Source: Rhizobium sp. Q54 (GTDB lineage Bacteria > Pseudomonadota > Alphaproteobacteria > Rhizobiales > Xanthobacteraceae). From it: DNA of 64,000 nucleotides. Below, one piece after another: positions 18,958 through 32,853 of the stretch. Both the position numbers and the translations under genes were made by a program. Where the stretch lies: the NCBI GenBank assembly GCA_945907045.1, contig CAMDSH010000006.1, positions 1 through 64,000 on the forward strand, in the 5' to 3' direction. The notes below the pieces were generated by a model. The model was not told the DNA's origin. It saw only the letters and a program-made list of their open reading frames with translations, and did no database searches. Positions within the stretch are counted from its first letter, which is position 1. Every line of letters starts with the position of its first letter.

Positions 18958-20958
18958 TCACACGTTGCTTGAGCCGTTGGCGCGTTCCACGATCCGCACC
19001 ACGTCGGACATGATGCGGTTCAGCTCGAAATCCTTCGGCGTATAGACCGCTGCGACGCCGGATTTTTCCAGCGCCTGCGCGTCCTCCGGCGGAATGATGC
19101 CGCCGACCACGACCGGAATGCCGTCGAGCCCGGCGTCTTTGAGCCGCATCACAACGTCCCGCACCAGCGGCAGATGGCTGCCCGATAGCACCGACAGGCC
19201 GATCACGTGCGGTCTTTGTTTGCCGGCGGCTGTGACGATTTCTTCCGGCGTCAGGCGGATGCCTTCGTACACCACCTGCATGCCGGCGTCGCGCGCGCGC
19301 ACCGCGATCTGCTCGGCGCCGTTGGAATGTCCGTCGAGGCCGGGCTTGCCGACGAGGAACGTCAACCGCCGTCCCAGTTTGCGCGAAACGCGGTCCACGT
19401 CGGCGCGGATGTCCTCGAGGCCATCGACGTCGTTGCGCATAGCATTGCCGACGCCGGTCGGCGCGCGGTATTCGCCGAAAGCTTCGCGCAAGGTCCAGCC
19501 CCATTCGCCGGTGGTGACGCCCGCTTTGGCGCAGGCGATGGAGGACGGCATGATGTTGCGGTTTTCTTTCGCCGCGCGCTTGAGTTCGGCCAGTGACGCC
19601 GCGACCGCCTTGGCGTCGCGCGCCTTTCGCCAGGCGTTGAGCCGCTCGATCTGGTCGCGCTCGGCTTCCACCGACACGGTCATGATGGCGTCGATGCCGC
19701 CGGTGAGCGGCGAGGGCTCGGTTTCGAGGAATTTGTTGACGCCGACGACGATCTGCTCGCCGCGCTCGATCGCCTCGAAACGCGCGCTGTTGGATTCCAC
19801 CAGCCGCTGCTTCATGTAGCCGGTTTCCACCGCCGCGATGGCGCCGCCCATGTCCTCGATGCGCTTGAGTTCTTCCTTGGCCTCGATTTTCAGCGCCTCG
19901 ACCTTGCGCGTTATCACCTCGGAGCCGTCGAACAGGTCGCCGTATTCCAGAAGATCAGTTTCGTAAGCGAGAATCTGCTGCATGCGCAGCGACCATTGCT
20001 GGTCCCACGGCCGGGGCAACCCAAGCGCCTCGTTCCACGCAGGAAGCTGCACGGCGCGCGCGCGGGCGTTCTTCGAGAGCGTGACGGCGAGCATCTCGAT
20101 CAGGATGCGCGCGACGTTGTTCTCCGGCTGCGGCTCGGTCAGCCCCAGCGAGTTCACCTGCACGCCGTAACGGAACAGCCGCTGTTTCGGATCGGTGATG
20201 CCGTAGCGCTCGCGCGTGATCTCGTCCCACAATTCGACGAAGGCGCGCATCTTGCAGATTTCAGTGACGAAACGCATGCCGGCGTTGACGAAAAACGAAA
20301 TGCGCCCGACCACTTCGCCGAATTTTTCCTGGGAAACTTCGCCCGATGCCTTCACCGTGTCGAGCACGGCGATGGCGGTGGCGAGCGCGTAGGCGAGTTC
20401 CTGCACCGGCGTCGCACCTGCTTCCTGCAAATGATAGGAGCAGATGTTCATCGGATTCCACTTCGGCAGTTCGGATGTGGTGAAGATCGCCACGTCCTTG
20501 ATCAGCCGCATCGACGGCGCGGGCGGATACACGTAAGTGCCGCGCGAGAGATATTCCTTGATGATGTCGTTCTGGATCGTGCCCTGCAGCGCCGAGCGCT
20601 CGACGCCTTGCTCGTCGGCGACCGCGATGTAGAGAGCCATCAGCCACGCGGCGGTGGCGTTGATGGTCATCGAGGTGTTCATGGTGGCGAGCGGAATGCC
20701 GTCGAACAGCGCGCGCATGTCGCCGAGATGCGTGACCGGGACGCCGACCTTTCCCACTTCGCCTTTGGCGAGCACGTGGTCGCTGTCGTAGCCGGTCTGC
20801 GTTGGCAGATCGAAGGCGACGGAAAGTCCGGTCTGTCCCTTCGATAAATTCTTGCGATAGAGCGCGTTGGAGTCGCGCGCCGTGGAATGTCCCGCATAGG
20901 TGCGGAAGATCCAGGGTTTGTCGCGTTGCGTTTTGCCGGATTCGGTTTTGTCGCGCAT
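18958..20958 (-). CDS. ecm: Ethylmalonyl-CoA mutase (B12-dependent)
   Basis: Ecm converts (2R)-ethylmalonyl-CoA to methylsuccinyl-CoA in the ethylmalonyl-CoA pathway, which assimilates acetyl-CoA. This 666-residue protein has the single-chain mutase layout. The N-terminal barrel begins IFRTYAGHSTARDSNALYRK and includes SVAFDLPTQTGYDSDH. The C-terminal cobalamin domain has GKPGLDGHSNGAEQ with the DxHxxG His and later GLSVLSGSH. The YGDLFDGSEVITRKVE segment and overall length match Ecm/MeaA rather than methylmalonyl-CoA mutase. Ccr and Mcd, the enzymes before and after it in the pathway, are also in this window. A TGCA palindrome lies 47 nt upstream. Confidence 0.92.
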   Translation of the reverse strand: MRDKTESGKTQRDKPWIFRTYAGHSTARDSNALYRKNLSKGQTGLSVAFDLPTQTGYDSDHVLAKGEVGKVGVPVTHLGDMRALFDGIPLATMNTSMTINATAAWLMALYIAVADEQGVERSALQGTIQNDIIKEYLSRGTYVYPPAPSMRLIKDVAIFTTSELPKWNPMNICSYHLQEAGATPVQELAYALATAIAVLDTVKASGEVSQEKFGEVVGRISFFVNAGMRFVTEICKMRAFVELWDEITRERYGITDPKQRLFRYGVQVNSLGLTEPQPENNVARILIEMLAVTLSKNARARAVQLPAWNEALGLPRPWDQQWSLRMQQILAYETDLLEYGDLFDGSEVITRKVEALKIEAKEELKRIEDMGGAIAAVETGYMKQRLVESNSARFEAIERGEQIVVGVNKFLETEPSPLTGGIDAIMTVSVEAERDQIERLNAWRKARDAKAVAASLAELKRAAKENRNIMPSSIACAKAGVTTGEWGWTLREAFGEYRAPTGVGNAMRNDVDGLEDIRADVDRVSRKLGRRLTFLVGKPGLDGHSNGAEQIAVRARDAGMQVVYEGIRLTPEEIVTAAGKQRPHVIGLSVLSGSHLPLVRDVVMRLKDAGLDGIPVVVGGIIPPEDAQALEKSGVAAVYTPKDFELNRIMSDVVRIVERANGSSNV

Positions 20959-21003
20959 GCCCGTCCTTGGCTCTTAGGACAGGGAATACTGTGAACTGCC
21001 CCT

Positions 21004-21018
21004 TGTTGCAATGCAACA
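21004..21018. promoter_or_regulatory. Candidate operator upstream of ecm (TGCA-N-TGCA palindrome)
   Basis: TGTTGCA-A-TGCAACA is a perfect 15-bp palindrome. It is 46-60 nt before the ecm start. On the ecm strand the adjacent TATGTT could be a -10 element partly covered by the site. The same core with the same spacing is upstream of ccr and mcd. Confidence 0.6.
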
Positions 21019-21025
21019 TAAGTTC

Positions 21026-21056
21026 GCCGCGCCAGGGGTCATTCCCCCGGCGCGGC
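21026..21056. other. Strong GC stem-loop between glsB-like gene and ecm
   Basis: GCCGCGCC (21026-21033) pairs with GGCGCGGC (21049-21056), and GGGG/CCCC extends the stem inside. There is no T-run on either strand. It may insulate the ecm promoter from the upstream gene or act in termination. Confidence 0.5.
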
Positions 21057-21093
21057 GCTACTCAAGGCTTCGGAAAGGCCGCTATCGGGCGGT

Positions 21094-21345
21094 CTAGCGC
21101 TTCACCAGGCCGATGATGACCAGCAGGATGACAGCGCCGATGGTGGCATTGATGATCGACGCGACGATGCCGCCGCCGATCGCGATGCCGAGCCGCGGCA
21201 GCAGGAAGCCGCCGATGAAGGCGCCGACGATGCCGACGATGATGTTGCCGATCAGGCCGAACCCGATTCCCTTGACGATCATTCCGGCGAGCCAGCCGGC
21301 GATCGCGCCGACAACCAACAGGACAACCAGTGCTTCAAGTGCCAT
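21094..21345 (-). CDS. GlsB/YeaQ/YmgE family stress-response membrane protein
   Basis: This 83-residue protein has three membrane helices rich in Gly: LEALVVLLVVGAIAGWLAGM, LIGNIIVGIVGAFIGGFLLP and a C-terminal ATIGAVILLVIIGL. Such proteins, once called transglycosylase-associated, are induced by stress in many bacteria; their role is not settled. ATG 21345 follows a GGGGAG site. A weak half-match to the TGCA motif (TTCAATGCAACA, 21412-21423) lies upstream. Confidence 0.88.
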   Translation of the reverse strand: MALEALVVLLVVGAIAGWLAGMIVKGIGFGLIGNIIVGIVGAFIGGFLLPRLGIAIGGGIVASIINATIGAVILLVIIGLVKR

Positions 21346-21580
21346 GACGCGTCTCCCCACTTTTGACCGGGCGATGCCGGGTGGCATCCGCTGACGGTCT
21401 TGTTCAATACGTTCAATGCAACAATAAAATGATCGGGCTGTCGACAGCCTCGCGAGCGCATCGCCCGCGATTTTGCGGCAGTGCGGGAGACTACAATCCC
21501 GGCGCGTGAAACAAATGCGCGCGCGAATGCACGGACCTTTTCAGGCCCGGGCATCGCTGAGTTAAGCGCGTGACGTCAGA

Positions 21581-21856
21581 TTAGCGGCAGCGCGTGTAAC
21601 GCTTGCGGCCGGACTGCGTGTAATAATAGCAGCGTCCGGGATACGTCGAGTCCGCGATGATCGCGCCGGCCGCGGCTCCGACCAGACCGCCCGCAACTGC
21701 GCCGCCAACGGAATTGCTCGCAAGCCCGCCGATCAGCGCACCACCGCCGGCTCCGATCAGCGCGCCACCGGCAACGCGATCCTGCCGCGCGGTCTGACAC
21801 CCGGCGAGCACCAGTCCCATCACCGCAACCGCGGCCACTACAAAAATCCTGCGCAT
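21581..21856 (-). CDS. Glycine-zipper outer-membrane-type lipoprotein
   Basis: This 91-residue lipoprotein has a signal peptide with lipobox VLAGC, so Cys near residue 20 is lipidated. The mature part has glycine-zipper repeats (GGALIGAGGGALIGGL, GGAVAGGLVGAAAGAI) that could pack as membrane hairpins. The end is CYYYTQSGRKRYTRCR. The start ATG 21856 has GGGAGA just upstream. A match to the EcfG stress-sigma promoter is located about 70-90 nt before the start, so it is likely part of the general stress response. Confidence 0.85.
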   Translation of the reverse strand: MRRIFVVAAVAVMGLVLAGCQTARQDRVAGGALIGAGGGALIGGLASNSVGGAVAGGLVGAAAGAIIADSTYPGRCYYYTQSGRKRYTRCR

Positions 21857-21922
21857 GTTGATTTCTCCCTGACGAGGACGCGTTTCCCCCCGCATGTTGC
21901 GCGGGATAATTCCTCAGCCATC

Positions 21923-21947
21923 AACGGGTGACTTGGTTTTTGGTTCC
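21923..21947 (-). promoter_or_regulatory. Candidate sigma-EcfG promoter
   Basis: On the minus strand GGAAC (21947-21943) is followed after 16 bases by CGTT (21926-21923). This fits the GGAAC-N16/17-CGTT form of alphaproteobacterial EcfG promoters. The spacing to the lipoprotein start at 21856 leaves a leader of roughly 55-60 nt. Confidence 0.6.
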
Positions 21948-22086
21948 GCAGGAAGGTGGAAATTAATTCACTTCCGCGCTGTGTATGGCGATCGAATTGA
22001 ACCAAAGAGACTGCCGGTCCGACCAATGATTAATGCTGTAATCAATGGCTGCGTGGCTTCACCGCGCGGCCGTGGGGGATATTGCG

Positions 22087-23580
22087 ATGCCGGAGCCTGA
22101 GAAAACGTCATACGGCGCCCTTGGCGTCGCCAGCATCCTCGGCTTTCTGATCCTTCCGGTCTGGGCTGCGAGCGTGGCGACACTCGCCAATCTTGCCGGC
22201 AGCGATGCAGCAGGCAACGCTCTGGGGCAAGCCTACGCCGCCATCGAGGTCATCATCCTCTGGTTGCTGCTTTTCATTCTCGCGATCGTAGCCGCCATGA
22301 AAGGCACGATGCCGCCGCCCGCCAAGTTCGCGGCGTTCATCCTCATCCCTGTCTCCGGCTTTGTGGTGATGCTGGCGCTGGATTTGCTCTCAAAGCTTTA
22401 CATTGCGCCGCACCTGTTACCTCTCGTTATTCCGGTGCTCGTTCCGCCGCTGATCGTGGCGTTTTGCTTCTGGGCGCTGATGCCGCCGATGCACGCGCGG
22501 GTGCCCGCGCGCCTCGCCGGTGGAATTGTCTGGGGCGCGGTCCTCGTGCTTTGCCTTTCGATCTGGCCGATGAGCGAAATGCGGGAGAGCGCGCTCGATA
22601 AAGAAAGCGCCATACGTGCAAAATACGACGCGGACTTCGCCAGCCTGCCGGCAAATTCCCCGCTGTGGGATTTGACCCCGTTTTTATCGACGCGCAACGA
22701 CACCAAGCGCACCGAGGTGCTGGAGCGGATTCGCAAGCTCGACAAGCGCCAGAGCGAAGCCGAACTGATGCTGGATCGCGGCGACTTTCCGCTGCTTTAT
22801 CTCGGTTCATTCGATCTCGACCCGACGCCCGCGCTTTGCGGCAAGGCGCGCAGTCTGCTGCGCAAACGCGTCGAGCCGCTTGTGCTCAAGAGCCCCAATT
22901 CCAAACCTTACGCCGATATCGCCGGGCCGGTGGCGGACGCTGTCGCCGCGATGAACTGGCTCGTCGGTTATGAATGCTCGTGCGATGCCGAATCGCTGGC
23001 CTGGGAATCCATGGCGAAGAATTATCGCGACACCAATTTCGACGTTTATCGTCTGGCCGAGATTCGCGATCCCAAAAATCTGGGGCGGATCGTGCGCGAG
23101 CATCCCGAGCGATTTTCAATGCTGACTCCGAAGGCGCATCTCAAAGCATGGCTGCGTTTTGCCGAGGAGATAAATTTGCGCGAACAGGCGCTCGCCGGCG
23201 CGCGCAAGCTCGATCACCGCACCGCCGATGCCGTCGAAATGCTGCGCGAGAGCGATCACGAAGCGCGTACGGTGATGCAATATCTGCCGGCGCTCGATCT
23301 CGCGGCGACGCCCCAGCTGTGCGCGGCGGGGCAGAAGGCGATCCACGATCAGCTCGCCAGAGTCTACCGGCCACGCGCCGACGATCCGCGGCCCTATTCC
23401 GAACTGCTCGACCGGCTCGGGCTCGGCGAACAGTTGCCCGCGCTGAAATGGCTGGCCTCGCATGGCTGTGACGCCGAAGCCGAATTGAGCGAAGCCGAGA
23501 CGCTCGTGCGCAGCTATCAGGATTCGCCCGCCCGGGCCGCGATGCTTGCCTCGCTGGCGCAGCTTCGCCGCAAGCCGTAG
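22087..23580 (+). CDS. Membrane protein with large soluble C-terminal region, unknown
   Basis: This 497-residue protein has about five membrane helices in the first 170 residues, for example ASILGFLILPVWAASVATL and VIILWLLLFILAIVAAM. About 330 mainly helical residues follow, with no repeat I can name. The soluble part has paired motifs, YLGSFDLDPTPALCGKA and YLPALDLAATPQLCAAG, each followed by a Tyr-Ala/Ser stretch and later WL-ASHGCDAE or WLVGYECSCDAE. This suggests an internal duplication of about 150 residues. ATG 22087 is preferred (GGGGGA upstream) over ATG 22045. I do not recognise a family. Confidence 0.65.
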   Translation: MPEPEKTSYGALGVASILGFLILPVWAASVATLANLAGSDAAGNALGQAYAAIEVIILWLLLFILAIVAAMKGTMPPPAKFAAFILIPVSGFVVMLALDLLSKLYIAPHLLPLVIPVLVPPLIVAFCFWALMPPMHARVPARLAGGIVWGAVLVLCLSIWPMSEMRESALDKESAIRAKYDADFASLPANSPLWDLTPFLSTRNDTKRTEVLERIRKLDKRQSEAELMLDRGDFPLLYLGSFDLDPTPALCGKARSLLRKRVEPLVLKSPNSKPYADIAGPVADAVAAMNWLVGYECSCDAESLAWESMAKNYRDTNFDVYRLAEIRDPKNLGRIVREHPERFSMLTPKAHLKAWLRFAEEINLREQALAGARKLDHRTADAVEMLRESDHEARTVMQYLPALDLAATPQLCAAGQKAIHDQLARVYRPRADDPRPYSELLDRLGLGEQLPALKWLASHGCDAEAELSEAETLVRSYQDSPARAAMLASLAQLRRKP

Positions 23581-23667
23581 GCGGCAGGCGGCACGGATTC
23601 TCGCAAGACATCCGGCGGCAACGGGTCGTATAGTTCATCCTCGATGAGTAGCCATCGGGAGACGTCC

Positions 23668-24138
23668 ATGCGCGTCCTTGTCCTACTGGCAGCAATCGCG
23701 AGTTTTGCTTTTTCATCCGCCACGGCGGGCGCTCAAGATCGCCTCATCGTCGCGCAAGCCGGAAGTACCGGCGGCAGCGTCGGGAAACCGAACAAGTCGG
23801 TGTCAGGCGATGCAGAACCGCGCCCCGCAAACCGGGATGCGGTCATAAGAAGCGCGTATCCGAAAACAATTCAGTTGAACGAACACGCTTTCGGCCTGAG
23901 TTGGTCCCTCACGCTACGCAATATCGGCGGCAGCGCATACGAGGGTACGTGGAGTCATGGCTATGCCACATCGTTCACGATCACGTCGTTCACGAGCGAT
24001 TCCATAAAAATGCATCGTGTCGACAAGCCCGCTTTAGGCGCGGTGGCGGGCTCGTATGCCGGAGTGCGGACCGGCAACAGTGCCAGCGGCACGGCCGTCT
24101 TTCCGATGGCGAGATCTACTTGGGAAGCGTCGTGGTGA
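23668..24138 (+). CDS. Exported protein of unknown function
   Basis: This 156-residue protein has a signal peptide (MRVLVLLAAIASFAFS..., cleavage near AGA-QD). The mature region is Ser/Gly/Thr-rich and looks beta-stranded, with WSLTLRNIGGSAYEGTWSHG and a C-terminus STWEASW. The start is ATG 23668, which has GGGAG upstream; another ATG lies eight codons earlier. No domain is recognised. It is convergent with a GT87-like gene. Confidence 0.6.
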   Translation: MRVLVLLAAIASFAFSSATAGAQDRLIVAQAGSTGGSVGKPNKSVSGDAEPRPANRDAVIRSAYPKTIQLNEHAFGLSWSLTLRNIGGSAYEGTWSHGYATSFTITSFTSDSIKMHRVDKPALGAVAGSYAGVRTGNSASGTAVFPMARSTWEASW

Positions 24139-24161
24139 CGTCTGGCGCAGCCGCCGTGGTT

Positions 24162-25361
24162 TCAGCGGACGCTGTTATTACGCGCCGAACTTAATACCCG
24201 CTGCATCACCAGCATTGCGACGATGAGCGTGGTCGCCAGACCGGTGTGCGTTTTCACGTAAGGATAAATCAGCAGCAATGCGGCGGCGGCGGAGAGGCCA
24301 ATCGCTTCGCTAATGAAAAATCCGCGTACGAGCGCGAAGCGAATGAGGAACGCAGCCGGAATCGCGAGCACGACGAGATCGTAGATATAGAGATACGGCG
24401 TCGCCAGGAGCGCCGCGCAGCCGAGCGCAGCGGCTTTCAGTTCGAACGGCGCGCGGCTGCGCCACAGCGCGAAAATCGCCAGCGCCAGAGCGCCTGCGAC
24501 GCTTGCCTGCGCCGCCCATGCAACAGTTTCGCTGCCGCCGTGAGCGCGGACAAAACCGAACACGCTTTGCAGCCGGTGCAGATCGGCGCGGCCTTCGCCC
24601 AGCACGGCCTGACTTGTCACAGAGAGGCCGTCGAAGAAAGCCTGCCACGGCGCGGAGCCGAAGCTCACCCACGACAGCAAAGCCATCGCAATGGCGACGC
24701 CTGCCGCGACGATGATGACGCGCCAGCGCGCGCCGGCAATCAGCGCAACCGGAAACAGCAGGCCGAAATGCGGCTTGTAGGTGAGTAGCCCCAGAAAAAT
24801 CCCCGCCCATGCCGGGTGCCGCTCGATGCAGGCGAGCGTGCCACCGATCAGCGAGGCGGTGAGAAATCCGTTCTGTCCGGCGGTGGCGTTCCACAGCACG
24901 GCGGGGCAACCGAGTGCCAGCAGAATTCCGGCGCGCTGGCCGGTGATGGCGCGCATCGCCGCGAGATAACCGGGCAGCGTGACGCCCAGCCAAACGAGCG
25001 CCGCCGCCGTATAAGGCAGCATCGCGAGACTAACGGCGGCGAACAAGAAAGTCGGCGGATAATGCCAGCCGTAATAATTCTCGAACGCATGCCCAACGGC
25101 GCGTACTTCGGCGGTTTTGTGAATCGTCCAGTCGTAAGCCGCGGCGGCATTGCCATCGAGCGCGAGCTGGCCCGCCGCCCAGACATTGACGAAGTCGTTG
25201 GCAATGGCGCGGCCCTGCGCGTCGATGAGCCAATGTCCCTGCACCCACGCGCCGCCAAGCACGACGAGATAGCCGAGCGCCAGCATCAACCCGATCAACC
25301 CAATGAGGCGCGCGGCGGACATTTGCGGCGTGGTGGGCGTGGCGATGCCTTGCGCGCTCAT
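24162..25361 (-). CDS. GT87-like (DUF2029) polytopic membrane glycosyltransferase, copy 2
   Basis: This 399-residue protein has about ten membrane helices and features of glycosyltransferase family 87, which uses polyprenyl-phosphate sugars. The first periplasmic loop carries ANDFVNVWAAGQLAL and, further on, YGWHYPPTFLFA. Later it has AGQNGFLTASLIGG and TYKPHFGLLFP. It is second in a pair of paralogues; the upstream copy ends with a 4-nt ATGA overlap at its start. The acceptor is unknown. Confidence 0.8.
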   Translation of the reverse strand: MSAQGIATPTTPQMSAARLIGLIGLMLALGYLVVLGGAWVQGHWLIDAQGRAIANDFVNVWAAGQLALDGNAAAAYDWTIHKTAEVRAVGHAFENYYGWHYPPTFLFAAVSLAMLPYTAAALVWLGVTLPGYLAAMRAITGQRAGILLALGCPAVLWNATAGQNGFLTASLIGGTLACIERHPAWAGIFLGLLTYKPHFGLLFPVALIAGARWRVIIVAAGVAIAMALLSWVSFGSAPWQAFFDGLSVTSQAVLGEGRADLHRLQSVFGFVRAHGGSETVAWAAQASVAGALALAIFALWRSRAPFELKAAALGCAALLATPYLYIYDLVVLAIPAAFLIRFALVRGFFISEAIGLSAAAALLLIYPYVKTHTGLATTLIVAMLVMQRVLSSARNNSVR

Positions 25362-26548
25362 ATTGTTCTCGCTGCAATGGCGCGGCGCGCGATCAGCGCG
25401 GCCACCACCAGCACGGCGGCGAAACCCACCGGCGCGGTGACGAACGGGAAGGTGAGAATAAGAAGACAGGCAAATCCAATTCCCGCCATCTCAAAGGGCA
25501 GGAATCCGTTTGCGCGCCCGGCGCGGAACAGAAACGCCAGCGGCACCGCCAGCACCACGAGGTCATAGGTGTAGAGATATGGAGTCGCCAGCATCGCGCC
25601 GGTGCCGAGTGCCGCTGCCTTGATGTCGAACGAAACTTTGCTGCGCCACAGCGCGGAGACAATCGCGGCGGCGATGATCGCGACGATTGCTTGCAACGAC
25701 CACGCCAGCGTCTCGCTTCCACCAAGCGTGCGCGTGAGACCGAACGTGGTTTGCAATTTGCTCCAGTCGGCCCAACCGTCGGAGAGGAACGCCTGCGATG
25801 TGTGCGAGATCGACGCGAAGAACACCGCCCAGGTTTCCGCGCCGAACGCGAACATCGAGGCGAGCGCCATCAGCGCGGCGACGAACGCCGCCGTGAAAAA
25901 TACACGCCAGTATCCCGCCGCTGCCAGCACGATGGGAAACAGCAATCCGAGATGCGGCTTGTAGGTGAGAAGCCCGAGACAAATTCCCGCCAGCACCGGG
26001 CGGCGCTCGATCCATAACAGCGTGCCGCCAAGCAGTCCGGCGGTGAGGAATCCGTTTTGCCCGACGACGAAGTTCGAGAGCACGGCGGGAAACGCCGCCG
26101 CCAGCAGATAACCGCTGCGCTCGCCAACGATGCCGCGCACGGCGGCGAGATAGAGAGGGAATGTGACGAACACCCAGAGCGCGTAAGCCGCCGCATACGG
26201 CATCAGCGCGAGCGCGGCTGCCGCGAACAAAAATGCCGGCGGATAGTGCCAGCCGAAATATCCGGCGAACGGATGTCCGACCGCGACCTCTTCTATCGCC
26301 TTGTGGATGTGCCAGTCGTAGGCCGCCGCCGGGCTGCCTTCGAGCGCCAGCTTTCCGGCCGCCCAGACGTTGACGAAATCGGACGCGATGCCGCCGCCAT
26401 CCGGCGCGATCAGCCACGTCCCCTGCCAATACGATGTGACGAGATAGACCGCGTGCGCGACGACGAGCGCAAAGCAGATCAACTCGGCCGCCTTTGCGAG
26501 CGGCGGCTGTGCGGGCTGATGGGAATGGGCGATATCGGCAAGCGCCAT
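25358..26548 (-). CDS. GT87-like (DUF2029) polytopic membrane glycosyltransferase, copy 1
   Basis: This 396-residue paralogue of the next gene has the same order of features: ASDFVNVWAAGKLAL, FGWHYPPAFLFA, VGQNGFLTAGLLGG and TYKPHLGLLFP. Its helices and length match the second copy, so they arose by tandem duplication. The Asp in the first loop is the likely catalytic residue of the family. Two non-identical copies in one operon may form a heteromer or act on successive acceptors. It is divergent from ccr, about 146 nt away. Confidence 0.8.
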   Translation of the reverse strand: MALADIAHSHQPAQPPLAKAAELICFALVVAHAVYLVTSYWQGTWLIAPDGGGIASDFVNVWAAGKLALEGSPAAAYDWHIHKAIEEVAVGHPFAGYFGWHYPPAFLFAAAALALMPYAAAYALWVFVTFPLYLAAVRGIVGERSGYLLAAAFPAVLSNFVVGQNGFLTAGLLGGTLLWIERRPVLAGICLGLLTYKPHLGLLFPIVLAAAGYWRVFFTAAFVAALMALASMFAFGAETWAVFFASISHTSQAFLSDGWADWSKLQTTFGLTRTLGGSETLAWSLQAIVAIIAAAIVSALWRSKVSFDIKAAALGTGAMLATPYLYTYDLVVLAVPLAFLFRAGRANGFLPFEMAGIGFACLLILTFPFVTAPVGFAAVLVVAALIARRAIAARTI

Positions 26549-26628
26549 GCGGCAAACCTAAAAGTGCCGCCTTGCGGAACCCTTAAACCGCTGCCTTTGC
26601 GGCCCCTGTGCATCGTCGAAAGGCTATA

Positions 26629-26640
26629 TTGCACTGCAAC
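26629..26640. promoter_or_regulatory. Candidate operator upstream of ccr (TGCA-N-TGCA palindrome)
   Basis: TTGCA-C-TGCAA with a trailing C lies 55-66 nt before the ccr start. A TATATT (26625-26630) overlaps its left edge and could be a -10 box, so a bound repressor would block it. The 19 bases from TTGCA through CATAAGTT are the same as at ecm except the centre base. Confidence 0.6.
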
Positions 26641-26694
26641 ATAAGTTGCGGCAGACTGATTGCCACGGACCGCGCTGTCCGTGGAGGGTTGGGC

Positions 26695-27975
26695 ATGCCG
26701 GCTGCTGCCAAGGTGACGAACCTCGCTGCGTTGAAGGATCTCTACGCCATCGGCGAGATTCCGCCGCTCGGCCACGTTCCGGAAAAAATGCACGCCTGGG
26801 TGATCCGCCAGGAGCGCCACGGCCCGCCCGACAAATCCATGCTGCTCGAAGTCGTCCCCACCTGGACGATAGCCGACGACGAAGTGCTCGTCCTCGTGAT
26901 GGCGGGCGGCGTCAATTACAACGGCATCTGGGCGGGCCTCGGTCAGCCGATCACGCCGTTCAATGTGCACAAGCAGCCGTTTCACATCGCTGGCTCAGAC
27001 GCCTCCGGCGTGGTGTGGGCGATTGGCTCGAAGGTCAAGCGCTGGAAAGTCGGCGACGAAGTCATCGTCCATTGCAATCAGGACGACGGCGACGACGAGG
27101 ATTGCAACGGCGGCGATCCGCTGCTCTCGCCCTCGCAACGCATCTGGGGTTACGAGACGCCGGACGGCTCGTTCGCGCAATTCTGCCGCGTGCAATCGCG
27201 CCAGTTGATGCTCAAGCCCTCGCATCTCACCTGGGAAGAGTCGGCCTGCTACACACTTACGCTCGCGACGGCGTATCGCATGCTATTCGGCCATTCGCCG
27301 CACACGCTCAAGCCGGGCGACAACGTTCTGGTGTGGGGCGCGTCCGGCGGGCTCGGCGTGTTCGGCTTGCAGCTCGTTGCCGCATCGGGCGCCAACGCCA
27401 TCGCCGTCGTCTCGGATGAGTCGAAGGCGGAGTATGTTTTCAATCTCGGCGCCAAGGGCGTCATCTATCGCAAGGAATACAAGTGCTGGGGCCAGATGCC
27501 GGCGGTGAACACCGCGGAATATAACGACTGGACCAAGGAAGCCCGCCGCTTCGGCAAGGCGATCTGGGACATCACCGGAAAACGCGACGTCGACATCGTG
27601 TTCGAACATCCGGGCGAACAGACTTTCCCCGTTTCGTGTTTGGTCGTGAAGCGCGGCGGCATCGTGGTCTTCTGCGCGGGAACGACCGGCTACAATCTCA
27701 CCTTCGATGCGCGTTACGTCTGGATGCGGCAGAAGCGCATTCAGGGTTCGCACTTCGCGCACCTGAAGCAGGCGTCCGCCGCCAACCGCTTCGTGCTCGA
27801 ACGCCGCATCGATCCTTGCATGAGCGAAGTGTTTCCGTGGGAGCAGATCCCGCTCGCGCATGTGAAGATGTGGAAGAACCAGCATCCTCCCGGCAACATG
27901 GCCGTGCTGGTGAACGCGCCGGGTCCGGGTCTGCGTACGCTTGAAGATGCGCAGGAAGCCGCCGGCGCAGCCTAG
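26695..27975 (+). CDS. ccr: Crotonyl-CoA carboxylase/reductase
   Basis: Ccr reduces crotonyl-CoA with NADPH while fixing CO2 to give (2S)-ethylmalonyl-CoA, the committed step of the ethylmalonyl-CoA pathway. This 426-residue medium-chain dehydrogenase-type protein has the long N-terminus with GGVNYNGIWAGLGQP, the acidic insert NQDDGDDEDCNGGDP typical of CCR, the nucleotide site LVWGASGGLGVFGLQL and the RIQGSHFAHLKQA region that supplies the CO2-pocket His. ATG 26695 follows GGAGGG and gives the usual family length; a longer frame starts at 26608. No other metabolic gene is in its operon. Confidence 0.95.
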   Translation: MPAAAKVTNLAALKDLYAIGEIPPLGHVPEKMHAWVIRQERHGPPDKSMLLEVVPTWTIADDEVLVLVMAGGVNYNGIWAGLGQPITPFNVHKQPFHIAGSDASGVVWAIGSKVKRWKVGDEVIVHCNQDDGDDEDCNGGDPLLSPSQRIWGYETPDGSFAQFCRVQSRQLMLKPSHLTWEESACYTLTLATAYRMLFGHSPHTLKPGDNVLVWGASGGLGVFGLQLVAASGANAIAVVSDESKAEYVFNLGAKGVIYRKEYKCWGQMPAVNTAEYNDWTKEARRFGKAIWDITGKRDVDIVFEHPGEQTFPVSCLVVKRGGIVVFCAGTTGYNLTFDARYVWMRQKRIQGSHFAHLKQASAANRFVLERRIDPCMSEVFPWEQIPLAHVKMWKNQHPPGNMAVLVNAPGPGLRTLEDAQEAAGAA

Positions 27976-27984
27976 TTCGCGAAT

Positions 27985-28845
27985 CTAGCGAGTACGTGCT
28001 CGCCGTTTGCTCCCGCGCGCTTTCAGGATCGCCGAATTCAATTCGCCGCCGTAAATGAAGATCGACGCGCAGACGTAGAGAAACACCAGCGCGATCATTG
28101 CCGAGGCCAGCCCCGCGTACATGATCGAATAGGCGAAGGCGAACTCGGCGAGGTAACGCCCGAATATCGCGCCGCTCGCCAGCCACAGCAGCAGCGTCGC
28201 GACGATTCCCGGCATCACTTGAAGTAATCCGCGGCTGCCGGCCGGCAGCCATAAGTGCACGATCAGCAGCGCGACCACGAGCACAAGCGCGGCGACGGAA
28301 AACCGCGCGAAGGTGATCAATTCCCCGAACGGCGCGATGGCGGGCGCGATTTTCAGCATCGTCGCCCAGATCAGCGGCGCCAGCACCACCAGAAAAGCAA
28401 ACGCCAGAAGCGCCACCGCGCCGACCAGCACATAGCCGATCGATTCCAGACGCAGCAGCCATGCTCCGCGCGGTTCGCTCACGTCATAGGCGCGGTTGAG
28501 CCCGATGCGCAGGCTCTCCACGCCGCTCGATGCGAAGTAGAGCGCGAAGGCGACGCCGAAAGTGAGCACGCCGCCGTTGGCGGTGGTCAGCACGCCGTGG
28601 ATATCGAGCGCGAGCGGACCGGCGACTTCCTTCGGCCAGGCTTCAAGCAAAATGCGCGCGGCCTCGTCGGCCATTTCCTTGGAGCCGAAGATGAAGCCGG
28701 CGATTGCCGTTACCACGATCAGGAATGGAAACATCGCCATCAAGGTGGAGAGCGCGATGTGGCTGGCGATGGCCCAGCCGTCGTCGGCGAGAAAATCCCG
28801 GAACGCGTCGATGGCGATCAGCAAGGATCGTTTGAGAAAATGCAA
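27985..28845 (-). CDS. YihY/BrkB family inner-membrane protein
   Basis: This 286-residue protein has six membrane helices and the family elements DDGWAIASHIALSTLMAMFP near the N-terminus and YLAEFAFAYSIMYAGLASAM with IFIYGGELNSAI near the end. It was once annotated as ribonuclease BN, but that assignment is not supported. Its true role is unknown, perhaps transport or envelope. It is convergent with ccr, with 9 nt between stops. Confidence 0.88.
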   Translation of the reverse strand: MHFLKRSLLIAIDAFRDFLADDGWAIASHIALSTLMAMFPFLIVVTAIAGFIFGSKEMADEAARILLEAWPKEVAGPLALDIHGVLTTANGGVLTFGVAFALYFASSGVESLRIGLNRAYDVSEPRGAWLLRLESIGYVLVGAVALLAFAFLVVLAPLIWATMLKIAPAIAPFGELITFARFSVAALVLVVALLIVHLWLPAGSRGLLQVMPGIVATLLLWLASGAIFGRYLAEFAFAYSIMYAGLASAMIALVFLYVCASIFIYGGELNSAILKARGSKRRARTR

Positions 28846-28939
28846 AGCGTTTACCCCAGGCGGCCTCGCCCTGCGTGAGATTGGCTATTAGGGAAAGATT
28901 TGCAAGCGGCAGTCTCAGCCGTTCGCCGGAAGGGAGAGG

Positions 28940-30934
28940 TTACGCCGCCCGCACGTCGGTGAGGAATTGCCGCACTTCGGTTTCCAGGCCTTCCGCGTCG
29001 ATGGCGAGCGCATCGGCTAGGCCCTTCACGTCGGCTGCGGTCGAGCGGGCATCGGCGCTGGCGCCGGCGACGCGGCTCATCGCTTCGGCGCCGGTACGCG
29101 CTTCACCGGAAGCGCGGCTGACGCCTTCGGCAATCGCCGCCACCGCCGAGTTCTGCTGCTGGACGGTCGACGCGACCATGTTAGCGATGCCGGACATCTC
29201 GACAATGATTTCGTTGACCTGCTCGATCGCCTGCGCGGCGTCGGCGGCTGCCGATTGAATGGCGCCGATCTGCCCGGCGATTTCCTCTGTCGCCTTGCCG
29301 GTCTGCCCGGCGAGCGATTTCACTTCCGACGCGACCACCGCGAAACCCTTGCCGGCTTCGCCCGCGCGCGCCGCCTCGATGGTGGCGTTGAGCGCCAGCA
29401 AATTGGTCTGTCCGGCGATGGCCTGAATGAGCCCGATCACTTCGCCGATGCGGGTGGCGGCGTTGCCGAGTTCGGTCATGGTATTGGCGGTGCGCTTTGC
29501 CTCGGACACCGCGCGCTCCGCGACTTCGGTCGACTTGGAAGCCTGCGCCGCGATTTCTCCGATCGAGGCCGCAAGTTCCTCGACCGAGCTTGCCGCGGCG
29601 GTGACGTTGCCGGATGCGGCGCTGACGCGCTCCTCGGCGCTGCGCGCTTCGGTGGAAACCGTGTCGGTTGCGCCATTCAGATCGGTCGAAGCGGTTTCCA
29701 GCCGCGCCGCCGCGCCGCGCAATTTGCCGAGCGCTTCGTCGACGGATTGTTCGAATCGCGCGATGGCCGCAGCGATCATGTCGGCGTGCTGTTCGCGCGC
29801 GCGATGGCCTTCGCGCCGTTCGGTGGAAAGGCGCTCGCGTTCGATCATGCTGTCGCGGAAGACGATGACGGTGCGCGCCATCGCGCCGATTTCGTCGCGC
29901 GCATGCGTCGCGAGAATTTGCGCCGTGGTATCGCCGTCGGCGAGGCGCTTCATCACACCGGCGAGGCTGTCGAGCGGGTGAGTGATGCTGCGGCCGATCA
30001 TGAAGCTGCAGGCGAGCCCGATCATGACCGCGATGCAGCCGACCCAGAAGATGATCCCTTTCGTGCGGTCCTGCGATTGCGTCAGCGTGTTCGACGCCTC
30101 CGCGACCTGCTGTTGGGCGGACGTGATCAGGCGGTCGGCGACCGGCCACATCTCCTGCGTGTTGAGATCGATGATGGTCAGCGACGGCTCGATTCGATTG
30201 ATGATCGCGATCCATTCGGTGAAGGTGTCGACGTAGGTTTTCACTTGAGCTTCGAGCTGGCTTTTCATCTCCGGCGAGCCTCCGACGGCGTCGAAGGCGG
30301 CGGTGAATTTCTTGAACTCGGCGTTGAACATCGCTTGTGAAATATCGTGCCGCTCCAGCCGGTATTCGGCCTCATAACGGCGCATCACCAGCAGCGAGGT
30401 GAGCAATTTCTTTGCCTCGATTTCGGCAAGCCAGGACATTTCCTGGTTGATGATGCGCTCCACCGCTGTGCCCGCCGTCTTCATCCGCTGGCGGATTCCG
30501 TTCTCTTCGGTGAAACCCAATCGCACATGCTCGTTGACGAGATTGGCGAAATGCGCGCTAACGTCCGTCAGGCGCGTGTGCAGCGCGCTAAGATCGTCCC
30601 GCGCCGCCGCGTCGATCGAGATTTCGATGATGTTCAGGTTGTTGAGCGCCATGATGTGGGCGCCGTTGAAGGCGTTGATCATTTGTTCGCTCGGCGCCTT
30701 TTCAAAGTCGCGCGCGCCTATCAGCATGCCGTTGAGCGCCCCCTTGAATTGATAGCTGGCGTCGGCAAGTGCGGCCGCGCGTTTCACCCGCTGGAAGGCG
30801 TCGTCGACATCGGCGCCGCCGGAGGTGAAGGCGATGCCATTGGCGAGGAAGCCCACGACCGGGATCATCGCCAGAACGATGATGCGGGTGCGGACCGAAA
30901 CCGAGGATACGAGGCGGGAGATAGACAGCCGCAT
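28940..30934 (-). CDS. Methyl-accepting chemotaxis protein with helical periplasmic domain and HAMP
   Basis: This 664-residue chemoreceptor has a first membrane helix ([20 protein letters not shown]). A periplasmic domain of about 280 residues, mostly helical, is consistent with a helical-bimodular type fold. The second helix is [20 protein letters not shown]. Then come HAMP ([20 protein letters not shown]) and the signalling domain with the tip [26 protein letters not shown]. It should be a membrane receptor that signals through CheA/CheW. The ligand is unknown. The start ATG 30934 puts the first helix near the N-terminus; a longer frame extends toward the mcd promoter and is not favoured. 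It is divergent from mcd. Confidence 0.87.
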
Positions 30935-31013
30935 GATTCCAATTCGCGTGGCACTGGAATGGCCTGGCGGGGCATGAACAAGTCGGCCGGTAATCCCCAT
31001 CTCAGGGAAGCGC

Positions 31014-31030
31014 AATATGGTTAATATTGT
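31014..31030. repeat. AT-rich inverted repeat between chemoreceptor and mcd
   Basis: CAATAT (31014-31019) and ATATTG (31025-31030) flank GGTTA. It lies 80 nt upstream of the chemoreceptor start. It may be an operator or a fragment of its promoter. Confidence 0.35.
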
Positions 31031-31115
31031 GGGAATTTTCATCACTTCACGGCTATTCACGCTGGCGCCGCAGCGTCTGTGCGAGGCCCCCAAAAGTCCT
31101 CTGTGGTCTTGCTTT

Positions 31116-31128
31116 TGTGCACTGCACA
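31116..31128. promoter_or_regulatory. Candidate operator upstream of mcd (TGCA-N-TGCA palindrome)
   Basis: TGTGCA-C-TGCACA is a perfect 13-bp palindrome, 49-61 nt before the mcd start. The core TGCA-N-TGCA and the distance match the sites of ecm and ccr. A small GGGGC/GCCCC hairpin (31142-31155) follows in the leader. Confidence 0.55.
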
Positions 31129-31176
31129 CGTAGTCTCAACAGGGGCATTTGCCCCCGTAGCTATCGAAGGAATCCG

Positions 31177-32853
31177 ATGCCGACCGCCGCTCCCCGCCCG
31201 AAGGCCGATCACGAGCTTGCCGAACTGGCGCAGGAAGCGGCCACCGCGCTTGAAACGCTGCTGGCGGACGCCACAACCAAGGTGCGCGCGCGCGTGGTGG
31301 TCGAAGGCCATGTGGTCAACAAGCTGCTCGACCGCGAGCAGCGCGCCACGCACGGGCTTGCCTGGCTCGCGACTTATACGGAGGCGGTGCGACAGCTTGC
31401 CGCTTACACCGCGCGCATGCTCGGCAGCGATTCGCTGGGCGAAATCGAAGAGCATGTGGTCCGCATCGGCCTGGGCGAATATCTCGCGCAGGTCGCCGGC
31501 GGCATTCCGATCAGCCAGGGCGAGATCGCGCGTCCCGCCGATTTCGGGCTTACCCAGGCGCAGGTCGCTTCGCGCATGGTGCCCGCTGTCGAGAAACTCA
31601 TTGCCACCGGCAACACCGCCGAGCGCCGCGCACGATTGAGCGAGCTGATGCGCGCCGACGCGCGCGCCACCATCGGCATGTGCGGACTGGAAGAGACGCT
31701 CGAATCCATTCGCGACGAGATGCGGAAATTCGCCGACAGCGAAGTGATCCAGTACGCGCAAGGCTGGCACCGCACCAACAGTTACATCCCGCTCGAGATC
31801 ATCAAGCAGATGTCCGAGCTTGGCGTGTTCGGCCTCACCATTCCGGAAGAATTCGGCGGCATGGGGCTGGGCAAGGAATCGATGTGCGTCGTCTCGGAGG
31901 AACTTTCGCGCGGATATATCGGCGTCGGCTCGCTCGGCACGCGCTCGGAAATCGCCGCTGAATTGATTTTAGGTTCCGGCACCACCGATCAGAAAAACAA
32001 ATGGCTCCCCAAAATCGCATCCGGCGAAGTGTTGCCGACGGCGGTGTTCACCGAGCCGAACACCGGCTCCGATCTGGCCTCGATCAAGACGCGCGCGGTG
32101 CGCGAGGGCGATGTCTACAAAGTCTACGGCAACAAGACCTGGATCACGCATCCGGTGCGCGCCGATCTGATGACGCTGCTGGTGCGCACGAATCCCAAGG
32201 AGTCCGGTCATCGCGGCCTTTCCATGCTGCTCGCCGAAAAGCCGCGCGGCAGCGACGAGAAACCGTTCCCCGCCGCCGGCATGACGGGCACCGAAATCGA
32301 AGTGCTCGGCTATCGTGGCATGAAGGAATACGAGATCGCCTTCGACGGCTTTGAGGTGAAGGCGGAGAACCTGCTCGGTGGCGTCGAGGGGCTCGGATTC
32401 AAGCAGTTGATGCAGACGTTCGAATCGGCGCGCATCCAGACCGCCGCCCGCGCCGTCGGTGTCGCGCAATCCGCGATGGAGCAGGCGCTCGGCTACGCGC
32501 AGAACCGCGTCCAGTTCGGCGTGCCGATCGCGGACTTTCCGCGCGTCGCCGACAAGATCGTGATGATGGCGGTGGAAATCATGATCGCGCGCCAGCTCAC
32601 TTATTACGCTGCGCGCGAGAAGGACTCCGGCCGCCGCTGCGACCTGGAAGCCGGCATGGCTAAACTGCTGGCCGCGCGCGTCGCATGGGCCGCCGCCGAC
32701 AACGCGGTGCAAATTCACGGCGGCAACGGCTTCGCGCTGGAGTTCCCGGTTTCTCGTATTCTCTGCGACGCCCGCATCCTGAGCATTTTCGAGGGCGCGG
32801 CCGAGATTCAGGCGCAGGTCATCGCCCGCAGGCTGCTCGACGACAGCAACTGA
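31177..32853 (+). CDS. mcd: (2S)-Methylsuccinyl-CoA dehydrogenase
   Basis: Mcd oxidises (2S)-methylsuccinyl-CoA to mesaconyl-CoA. This 558-residue acyl-CoA dehydrogenase has an N-terminal helical extension of about 150 residues, which distinguishes Mcd from ordinary family members of about 380. The core holds EFGGMGLGKESMCVVSEELS, TEPNTGSDLASIKTRAV and, near the end, the catalytic Glu in ILSIFEGAAEIQAQV. Its companion pathway enzymes Ccr and Ecm are nearby. ATG 31177 is used; an AAGG sequence is 7-10 bases upstream. A longer frame from 31027 would begin inside the promoter. Confidence 0.93.
   Translation: MPTAAPRPKADHELAELAQEAATALETLLADATTKVRARVVVEGHVVNKLLDREQRATHGLAWLATYTEAVRQLAAYTARMLGSDSLGEIEEHVVRIGLGEYLAQVAGGIPISQGEIARPADFGLTQAQVASRMVPAVEKLIATGNTAERRARLSELMRADARATIGMCGLEETLESIRDEMRKFADSEVIQYAQGWHRTNSYIPLEIIKQMSELGVFGLTIPEEFGGMGLGKESMCVVSEELSRGYIGVGSLGTRSEIAAELILGSGTTDQKNKWLPKIASGEVLPTAVFTEPNTGSDLASIKTRAVREGDVYKVYGNKTWITHPVRADLMTLLVRTNPKESGHRGLSMLLAEKPRGSDEKPFPAAGMTGTEIEVLGYRGMKEYEIAFDGFEVKAENLLGGVEGLGFKQLMQTFESARIQTAARAVGVAQSAMEQALGYAQNRVQFGVPIADFPRVADKIVMMAVEIMIARQLTYYAAREKDSGRRCDLEAGMAKLLAARVAWAAADNAVQIHGGNGFALEFPVSRILCDARILSIFEGAAEIQAQVIARRLLDDSN

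Follow-up and report, generated by a model that had tools for sequence, protein, structure and literature searches.

PhaR-like palindromes precede ecm, ccr and mcd

Three genes of the ethylmalonyl-CoA (EMC) pathway in Rhizobium sp. Q54, ecm, ccr and mcd, each have an upstream palindrome that resembles the operator of PhaR, a transcription factor that binds polyhydroxybutyrate (PHB) granules, and we consider it probable (roughly 0.7) that PhaR represses all three and that PHB granules titrate it away. The genes lie within a 64,000 nt stretch of contig CAMDSH010000006.1, referred to here as the window, and all coordinates without an L prefix are window positions. PHB storage and C2 assimilation both tap one pool of acetoacetyl-CoA and 3-hydroxybutyryl-CoA. 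The genes, candidate operators and repeat copies are as follows.

18958..20958, minus strand: ecm, ethylmalonyl-CoA mutase-type protein (666 aa); NCBIfam and PDB matches to the methylmalonyl-CoA mutase family
21001..21021, minus strand: candidate PhaR-type operator of ecm; core palindrome 21004-21018, matrix score 24.1, second in the window
21006..21024, plus strand: left copy of the 19-base direct repeat TTGCA-N-TGCAACATAAGTT, read directly
26624..26644, plus strand: candidate PhaR-type operator of ccr; core 26629-26639, matrix score 24.2, first in the window
26629..26647, plus strand: right copy of the 19-base direct repeat TTGCA-N-TGCAACATAAGTT, read directly
26695..27975, plus strand: ccr, crotonyl-CoA carboxylase/reductase (426 aa); TIGR01751 611.8 bits (cut-off 378.55), PDB 4gi2 811.4 bits
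31112..31132, plus strand: candidate PhaR-type operator of mcd; core 31116-31128, matrix score 19.1, third in the window
31177..32853, plus strand: mcd, methylsuccinyl-CoA dehydrogenase-type protein (558 aa); matches PDB 6es9 and 8ciw

The mcd product matches PDB 6es9 (named Acyl-CoA dehydrogenase) over nearly its full length with 728.7 bits and, more weakly, 8ciw (named (2S)-methylsuccinyl-CoA dehydrogenase) with 265.8 bits, while the mutase-family protein encoded at 18958-20958 was assigned as Ecm by its place, its homologue being divergent from ccr in all 60 related loci in which both genes were scored. By Ccr, the closest named relatives (best 80 of 595) include Pseudolabrys-type metagenome genomes of the Rhizobiales.

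Read directly in the sequence, the ecm palindrome (TGTTGCA-A-TGCAACA, 21004-21018) lies 46-60 nt upstream of the minus-strand start at 20958 and the mcd palindrome (TGTGCA-C-TGCACA, 31116-31128) 49-61 nt upstream of the start at 31177, both as an initial annotation of the window had placed them. The ccr palindrome (TTGCA-C-TGCAA, 26629-26639) is likewise present, at 56-66 nt from the start at 26695 rather than the 55-66 nt given there. The same annotation had described a 19-base block common to ecm and ccr but reversed relative to the gene, and this was borne out, because both copies lie on the plus strand while the two genes are divergent.

We scored the sites with a matrix made from 17 of the 21-mers found at S. 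meliloti promoters that bind PhaR with the grade 'Efficient' (PMC12542648, Table 3), a grade that was given by promoter and not by individual site; weak, none and not-evaluated sites were left out, as were three of the four exoH sites. The source sites of the matrix score 17.2-28.5, and a score of 14 or more was taken as a site throughout. With this matrix the ecm, ccr and mcd sites were the top three of ~64,000 window positions (24.1, 24.2 and 19.1, respectively), all inside the range of the source sites. All three satisfy the core YGCR-N-YGCR of the S. meliloti consensus, which has AT-rich arms, but the 21-base consensus string is not matched letter by letter, with a C at the first W in all three and a G at a second W in mcd. 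Furthermore, the mcd site has a stretch of 14 bases, TTGTGCACTGCACA, in common with the site of S. meliloti phaP1 (PMC12542648). The sites had also been described as matching the Bradyrhizobium PhaR sequence closely but not fully, and this is what we found for the Bradyrhizobium diazoefficiens consensus TGCRNYGCASMA (PMC6201568; also PMC10888616): its core TGCRNYGCA fits all three sites and the ends of the 12-mer fit partly, with ecm and ccr reading TGCANTGCAACA, as do the Bradyrhizobium bsr4236, blr6443 and pqqA sites (PMC6201568).

Conservation among relatives and across the Alphaproteobacteria

We scored the best 80 of 595 ccr loci from named genomes (the relatives' set), giving 77 ccr, 61 ecm and 37 mcd regions; filtering removed L034, L048 and L062 from the ccr set, and ecm and mcd were scored only in loci where their match passed. 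PhaR-like sites scoring at least 14 were found within 200 nt of the start in 42/77 ccr, 32/61 ecm and 28/37 mcd regions, compared with 3/461 upstream regions of other genes and 0/418 gene interiors from the same loci. Fisher values overstate the enrichment, given the relatedness of the loci and the single site that ecm and ccr frequently have in common. The bare core YGCR-N-YGCR was less telling, being present in 57/77 ccr, 41/61 ecm and 32/37 mcd regions versus 99/461 upstream regions and 81/418 interiors. The 'constant position' reported earlier holds inside the window but not beyond it, as among relatives the median distance from site centre to start was 71.5 nt for ccr, 78 nt for ecm and 44 nt for mcd, for sites scoring at least 14.

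A class sample was taken from the Alphaproteobacteria with one genome per family, which gave a Ccr match in 35 of 115 genomes and 33 scored upstream regions; these leave out the Q54 genome itself and G049 (split gene) and include G108, which has no more than a 53% relative. Within 300 nt of ccr, 24/33 promoters scored at least 14 and 17/33 at least 17, while column-permuted palindromic matrices gave an average of 0.35 and a maximum of 15 (200 permutations) against the 24/33. PhaR was present in 46/48 genomes searched in the relatives' set and 31/33 in the class sample, and as it is this universal, PhaR presence was dropped as a discriminator for the ccr site. One genome with no PhaR match (G056, 93% complete) has a best ccr score of 2.7, which agrees with PhaR control.

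That these are chance palindromes in a GC-rich genome is barely credible. Within the window the bare core TGCANTGCA shows no clear excess, with 4 copies versus 1.25 +/- 1.09 in dinucleotide shuffles (5/100 shuffles reach 4), and its count alone is unremarkable; the fourth copy, at 43277, is within a called gene and has a matrix score of 10.0. The placement of the cores is not chance, however, and position, matrix rank and conservation in both the relatives' and class samples speak against chance for the sites.

PhaR-like sites elsewhere in the genome

The Q54 assembly is 91% complete, and of its 3.3 Mb the matrix scan covered ~0.25 Mb, mostly DNA from the surroundings of motif matches and so not random. 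A home-made gene caller, which placed some starts too far upstream (ccr was begun at 26608), was used for inside/outside counts, control promoters and the choice of flanking proteins to annotate. Genome-wide, the bare core TGCANTGCA occurred 39 times versus 16 for a reversed control pattern, and 26 of the 39 were outside called genes versus ~6.3 expected from the 83.8% coding fraction of the window; this rises to 28 once ccr and mcd are reassigned, both having been overrun by the caller through an extended start or a neighbouring gene. Matrix scores of at least 14 were reached by 16 of the 26 outside cores and by 3 of the 13 inside cores, namely those of ccr and mcd and a third right at a gene start (L121). 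All 26 sites scoring at least 14 in the scanned DNA lay outside genes or at most 60 nt from a called gene end, with none in gene interiors. The pattern WDDNTGCRNYGCANHHW gave 26 genome matches versus 11 for its control, and does not catch the mcd site because of its last W; a looser pattern, TNYGCRNYGCRNA, gave 103 matches versus 152 for the reversed control, with those listed mostly GC-rich, and was dropped.

Among the genes preceded by sites are several of PHB metabolism. The phasin gene (TIGR01985, 135.2 bits, cut-off 99.7) has two tandem sites 19 bp apart, scoring 27.9 and 20.4, the PHB depolymerase gene (TIGR01849, 632.2 bits, cut-off 300.75) has an upstream site of 17.9, and the 3-hydroxybutyrate dehydrogenase gene (TIGR01963, 354.4 bits, cut-off 307.05) has one of 28.0. 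A single phaR gene was found, beside a thiolase gene (L126:2083-2655; PF07879 106.8 bits, TIGR01848 151.3 bits, cut-off 109.45). The sites, their conservation, the motif common to PHB genes and the presence of phaR are direct observations.

At L163:3510-4990 the 3-hydroxybutyrate dehydrogenase gene is closely followed by a patatin-like gene, under the single strong site (28.0).

Divergent ecm-ccr layout and putative promoter elements

The gap between the divergent ecm and ccr is below 600 nt in 38 of the 60 loci, and in 26 of these 38 the best site is identical for both genes, scoring at least 14 in 22, while in 9/38 neither gene has a site of at least 14. Where the gap is wider (22/60), a site of at least 14 was found at each gene in 6 loci, at one gene in 3 and at neither in 13; overall, 40/60 loci have such a site somewhere between the ecm and ccr starts. 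The window has a gap of ~5.7 kb with a site at each gene and the copies in the same chromosomal orientation, and judging by this arrangement a divergent operator that ecm and ccr once shared may have been duplicated, or retained next to each gene, as other genes came to separate them.

A -10-like hexamer (CAGACT, CACACT, CAAACT etc.) stands 17 nt after TTGCAN in 16/46 ccr and 13/36 ecm promoters with a site, including nearly all close relatives, a spacing that points to a second role of the palindrome halves as -35 boxes. Several competing hexamer offsets were also obtained, the highest lying inside the palindrome's own arms (+3 for ccr, 32/46; -9 for ecm, 25/36), and for this reason we keep the promoter layout as an inference. 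The mcd site looks to be in the spacer of an apparent TTGCTT-16-TAGTCT promoter. It is unlikely, if appreciably possible, that PhaR binds as an activator or fine-tuner, or that the sites are mainly promoter elements with the TTGCA halves as -35 boxes. The hexamer spacing would fit promoter elements, and some PhaR-associated genes fall in phaR mutants of Bradyrhizobium and S. meliloti (PMC6201568, PMC12542648), but the S. meliloti motif sites concentrate at repressed genes (22/71 of module 1 versus seven activated; PMC12542648) and the candidate operators here appear to cover or abut predicted promoter elements, the usual place of a repressor.

The DNA separating ecm from ccr also holds a small membrane-protein gene (21094-21345; Transgly_assoc, PF04226) preceded by a weaker, doubtful PhaR-like site with one degenerate half (21406..21426, minus strand, score 14.4). 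Of 16 related loci scored for the PF04226 homologue, 8 have a YGCR-N-YGCR core at the best place of the upstream 200 nt, which in L021, L022 and L026 is ccr's own site; the observation bears on loci L011, L021, L022, L024, L026, L036, L039, L040 and L083.

Candidate regulators and the proposed switch

The initial annotation had named PhaR, a ScfR-type and a CcrR-type protein as possible regulators, and of the three PhaR appears to fit best, given the S. meliloti matrix, the sites at PHB genes of the same genome and the conservation among relatives and across the class. The S. meliloti PhaR (AniA) regulon is alike in having the same palindrome YGCR-N-YGCR; phasin and depolymerase genes are PhaR targets there and motif carriers here, with tandem phasin sites in both, and in S. 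meliloti the phasin and depolymerase genes are derepressed once accumulated PHB has sequestered PhaR (PMC12542648). In Methylorubrum, phaR takes part in acetyl-CoA partitioning (Korotkova 2002, cited through PMC6520949).

From the sequence we infer PhaR binding, repression and a granule switch at the ecm, ccr and mcd promoters. The palindromes would be operators of PhaR, and with little PHB stored, free PhaR would occupy the three promoters and keep the EMC pathway repressed. With ample acetyl-CoA and PHB granules forming, PhaR would be captured by the granules, and its titration would release ecm, ccr and mcd together with the phasin, PHB depolymerase and 3-hydroxybutyrate dehydrogenase genes. 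Repression is suggested by the published behaviour of PhaR and by operators that seem to lie over predicted promoter elements. Because three acetate-pathway genes carry PhaR-type sites, a common switch for storage and acetate use is probable.

A different pathway-specific regulator, such as a CcrR-like TetR protein or another dimer, might bind the same palindrome with a convergent likeness to PhaR sites, which we regard as improbable. The TetR regulator CcrR of Methylobacterium extorquens activates an EMC gene, acting on ccr with half the Ccr activity left in the mutant (PMC4207312), several strong sites in the Q54 genome are away from PHB genes, and no PhaR match was obtained in three genomes that have a ccr site, though their assemblies are perhaps incomplete. 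Against this, the palindrome is missing at ccr in 8 of the 12 Methylobacterium-type loci scored, and the long motif including its arms also precedes the phasin, depolymerase and 3-hydroxybutyrate dehydrogenase genes of Q54.

Binding by a ScfR/RamB-type CoA-ester sensor is very improbable. RamB (ScfR family) of Paracoccus denitrificans does link C2-assimilation pathways by transcription; in Paracoccus, Ccr is off on succinate and on with acetate, and while deletion of two of three ScfR genes left EMC expression unchanged, deletion of ramB raised EMC transcripts (PMC10370305). However, RamB binds EMC CoA esters whereas PhaR binds PHB, and RamB binding was demonstrated at a glyoxylate-cycle operon, at a site of two near-identical boxes with an 18 bp spacer (PMC10370305), in contrast to the lone palindrome with a one-base centre found here, which is also present at phasin and depolymerase genes.

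A search for a solved structure of PhaR returned six weak matches (E 0.04 or worse), none of them PhaR relatives.

Genes and loci that depart from the pattern

A number of observations weigh against PhaR as the regulator of ecm, ccr and mcd. Within the Q54 genome, 10 of the 26 non-coding cores score below 14, and the PHB and EMC genes at which the initial annotation had proposed looking for the motif are covered unevenly: phasin and PHB depolymerase have sites, but the phaR/phaA (thiolase) region has none of at least 14, with a best score of 7.4. Likewise, the expected sites at mch and mcl were not found, with no site of at least 14 at the best mch candidate (PF19315 match L204, 59.9 bits; best score in the stretch 6.3) or at five malyl-CoA-lyase-family genes (PF03328, L199-L203; best score 12.8, away from the gene start), any of which may be the true malyl-CoA lyase, in this 91% complete assembly. 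The sites thus cover the EMC pathway only in part. Strong sites also precede genes with no evident PHB role, encoding glycyl-tRNA synthetase, a K+ transporter and tRNA-dihydrouridine synthase, and others precede those for a GNAT acetyltransferase, an NMT1-like binding protein, a TctC-type receptor and an M24 peptidase, although not every site beyond the PHB and EMC genes need be real. Furthermore, as PhaR can also activate, the sign of control is not certain.

Among relatives, no site of at least 14 was found between ecm and ccr in those eight of 12 Methylobacterium/Methylorubrum loci (L032, L042, L049, L054 and L063-L066; present in L031, L059, L067 and L068), nor within 300 nt of ccr in 5/5 Methylocystis loci (L041, L047, L050, L051, L085) and 2/2 Bradyrhizobium loci (L084, L086), the latter being both of the Bradyrhizobium ccr loci in the relatives' set. 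Those of these site-less genomes that were searched hold PhaR, so PhaR alone fails to predict a ccr site. Conversely, a ccr site was found with no PhaR match in the genomes of L011 (19.0), L013 (25.7) and G112 (14.3; 68% complete), where incomplete assemblies may be behind the missing PhaR.

The papers searched are also silent on the connection. The word 'ethylmalonyl' is absent from the main text of the S. meliloti study, which does not mention 'crotonyl' either and whose Table 3 has no EMC-labelled gene (PMC12542648), 'ethylmalonyl' and 'crotonyl' are absent from the main texts of the two Bradyrhizobium studies (PMC6201568, PMC10888616), and ccr and mcd are not mentioned in the available parts of the Methylorubrum phaR-mutant literature. 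A link between PhaR and EMC genes was not found in literature titles or abstract openings, with subscription papers little covered and an earlier report possible, nor in passages of PMC6520949, PMC2948502 and PMC7109303, and a term search of PMC5343134 was also empty. This silence may arise because two genera studied for PhaR have loci without the site.

At slightly under even odds, we suggest that a single palindromic PhaR operator, its TTGCA halves serving as overlapping -35 boxes of the divergent ecm and ccr promoters, is an old class-wide switch that couples entry into the EMC pathway to the cell's PHB content through titration of PhaR on granules. Bradyrhizobium and much of Methylobacterium would since have lost or replaced it.

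Other PhaR-like sites in Q54

The glycyl-tRNA synthetase alpha subunit gene (L105:3947-4780, C10) has a site of 22.4 at 51 nt upstream and no obvious PHB link. The GNAT acetyltransferase gene (L113:901-1473, C16) has a PhaR-like site of 28.0 at 113 nt upstream, and its product has a weak likeness to the protein acetyltransferase Pat (43.5 bits, cut-off 460). A 52-aa open reading frame (L110:1250-1405, C15, minus strand) has two upstream PhaR-like sites 20 bp apart, scoring 22.3 and 15.3. In Bradyrhizobium, the bsr gene tags denote small open reading frames. Strongly PhaR-repressed genes of that genus include some bsr-tagged 'unknown protein' genes (PMC6201568). An Rfam scan of ten stretches of the Q54 genome for a regulated small RNA returned two tRNAs and one match below the gathering score. 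Within the window, a further PhaR-like site (2924-2944, score 17.8) lies directly 3' of the stop of a PutA-like gene; it was dropped as an operator, being part of a larger inverted repeat with T and A runs that is perhaps a terminator.

Possible coupling of PHB storage to C2 assimilation

If PhaR does control ecm, ccr and mcd, a single sensor, a repressor that responds to granules, would govern both storage and C2 assimilation, and this reading yields a testable prediction across many species. It would also offer a possible handle for biotechnology, through which acetyl-CoA might be steered between PHB and pathway-derived acids.

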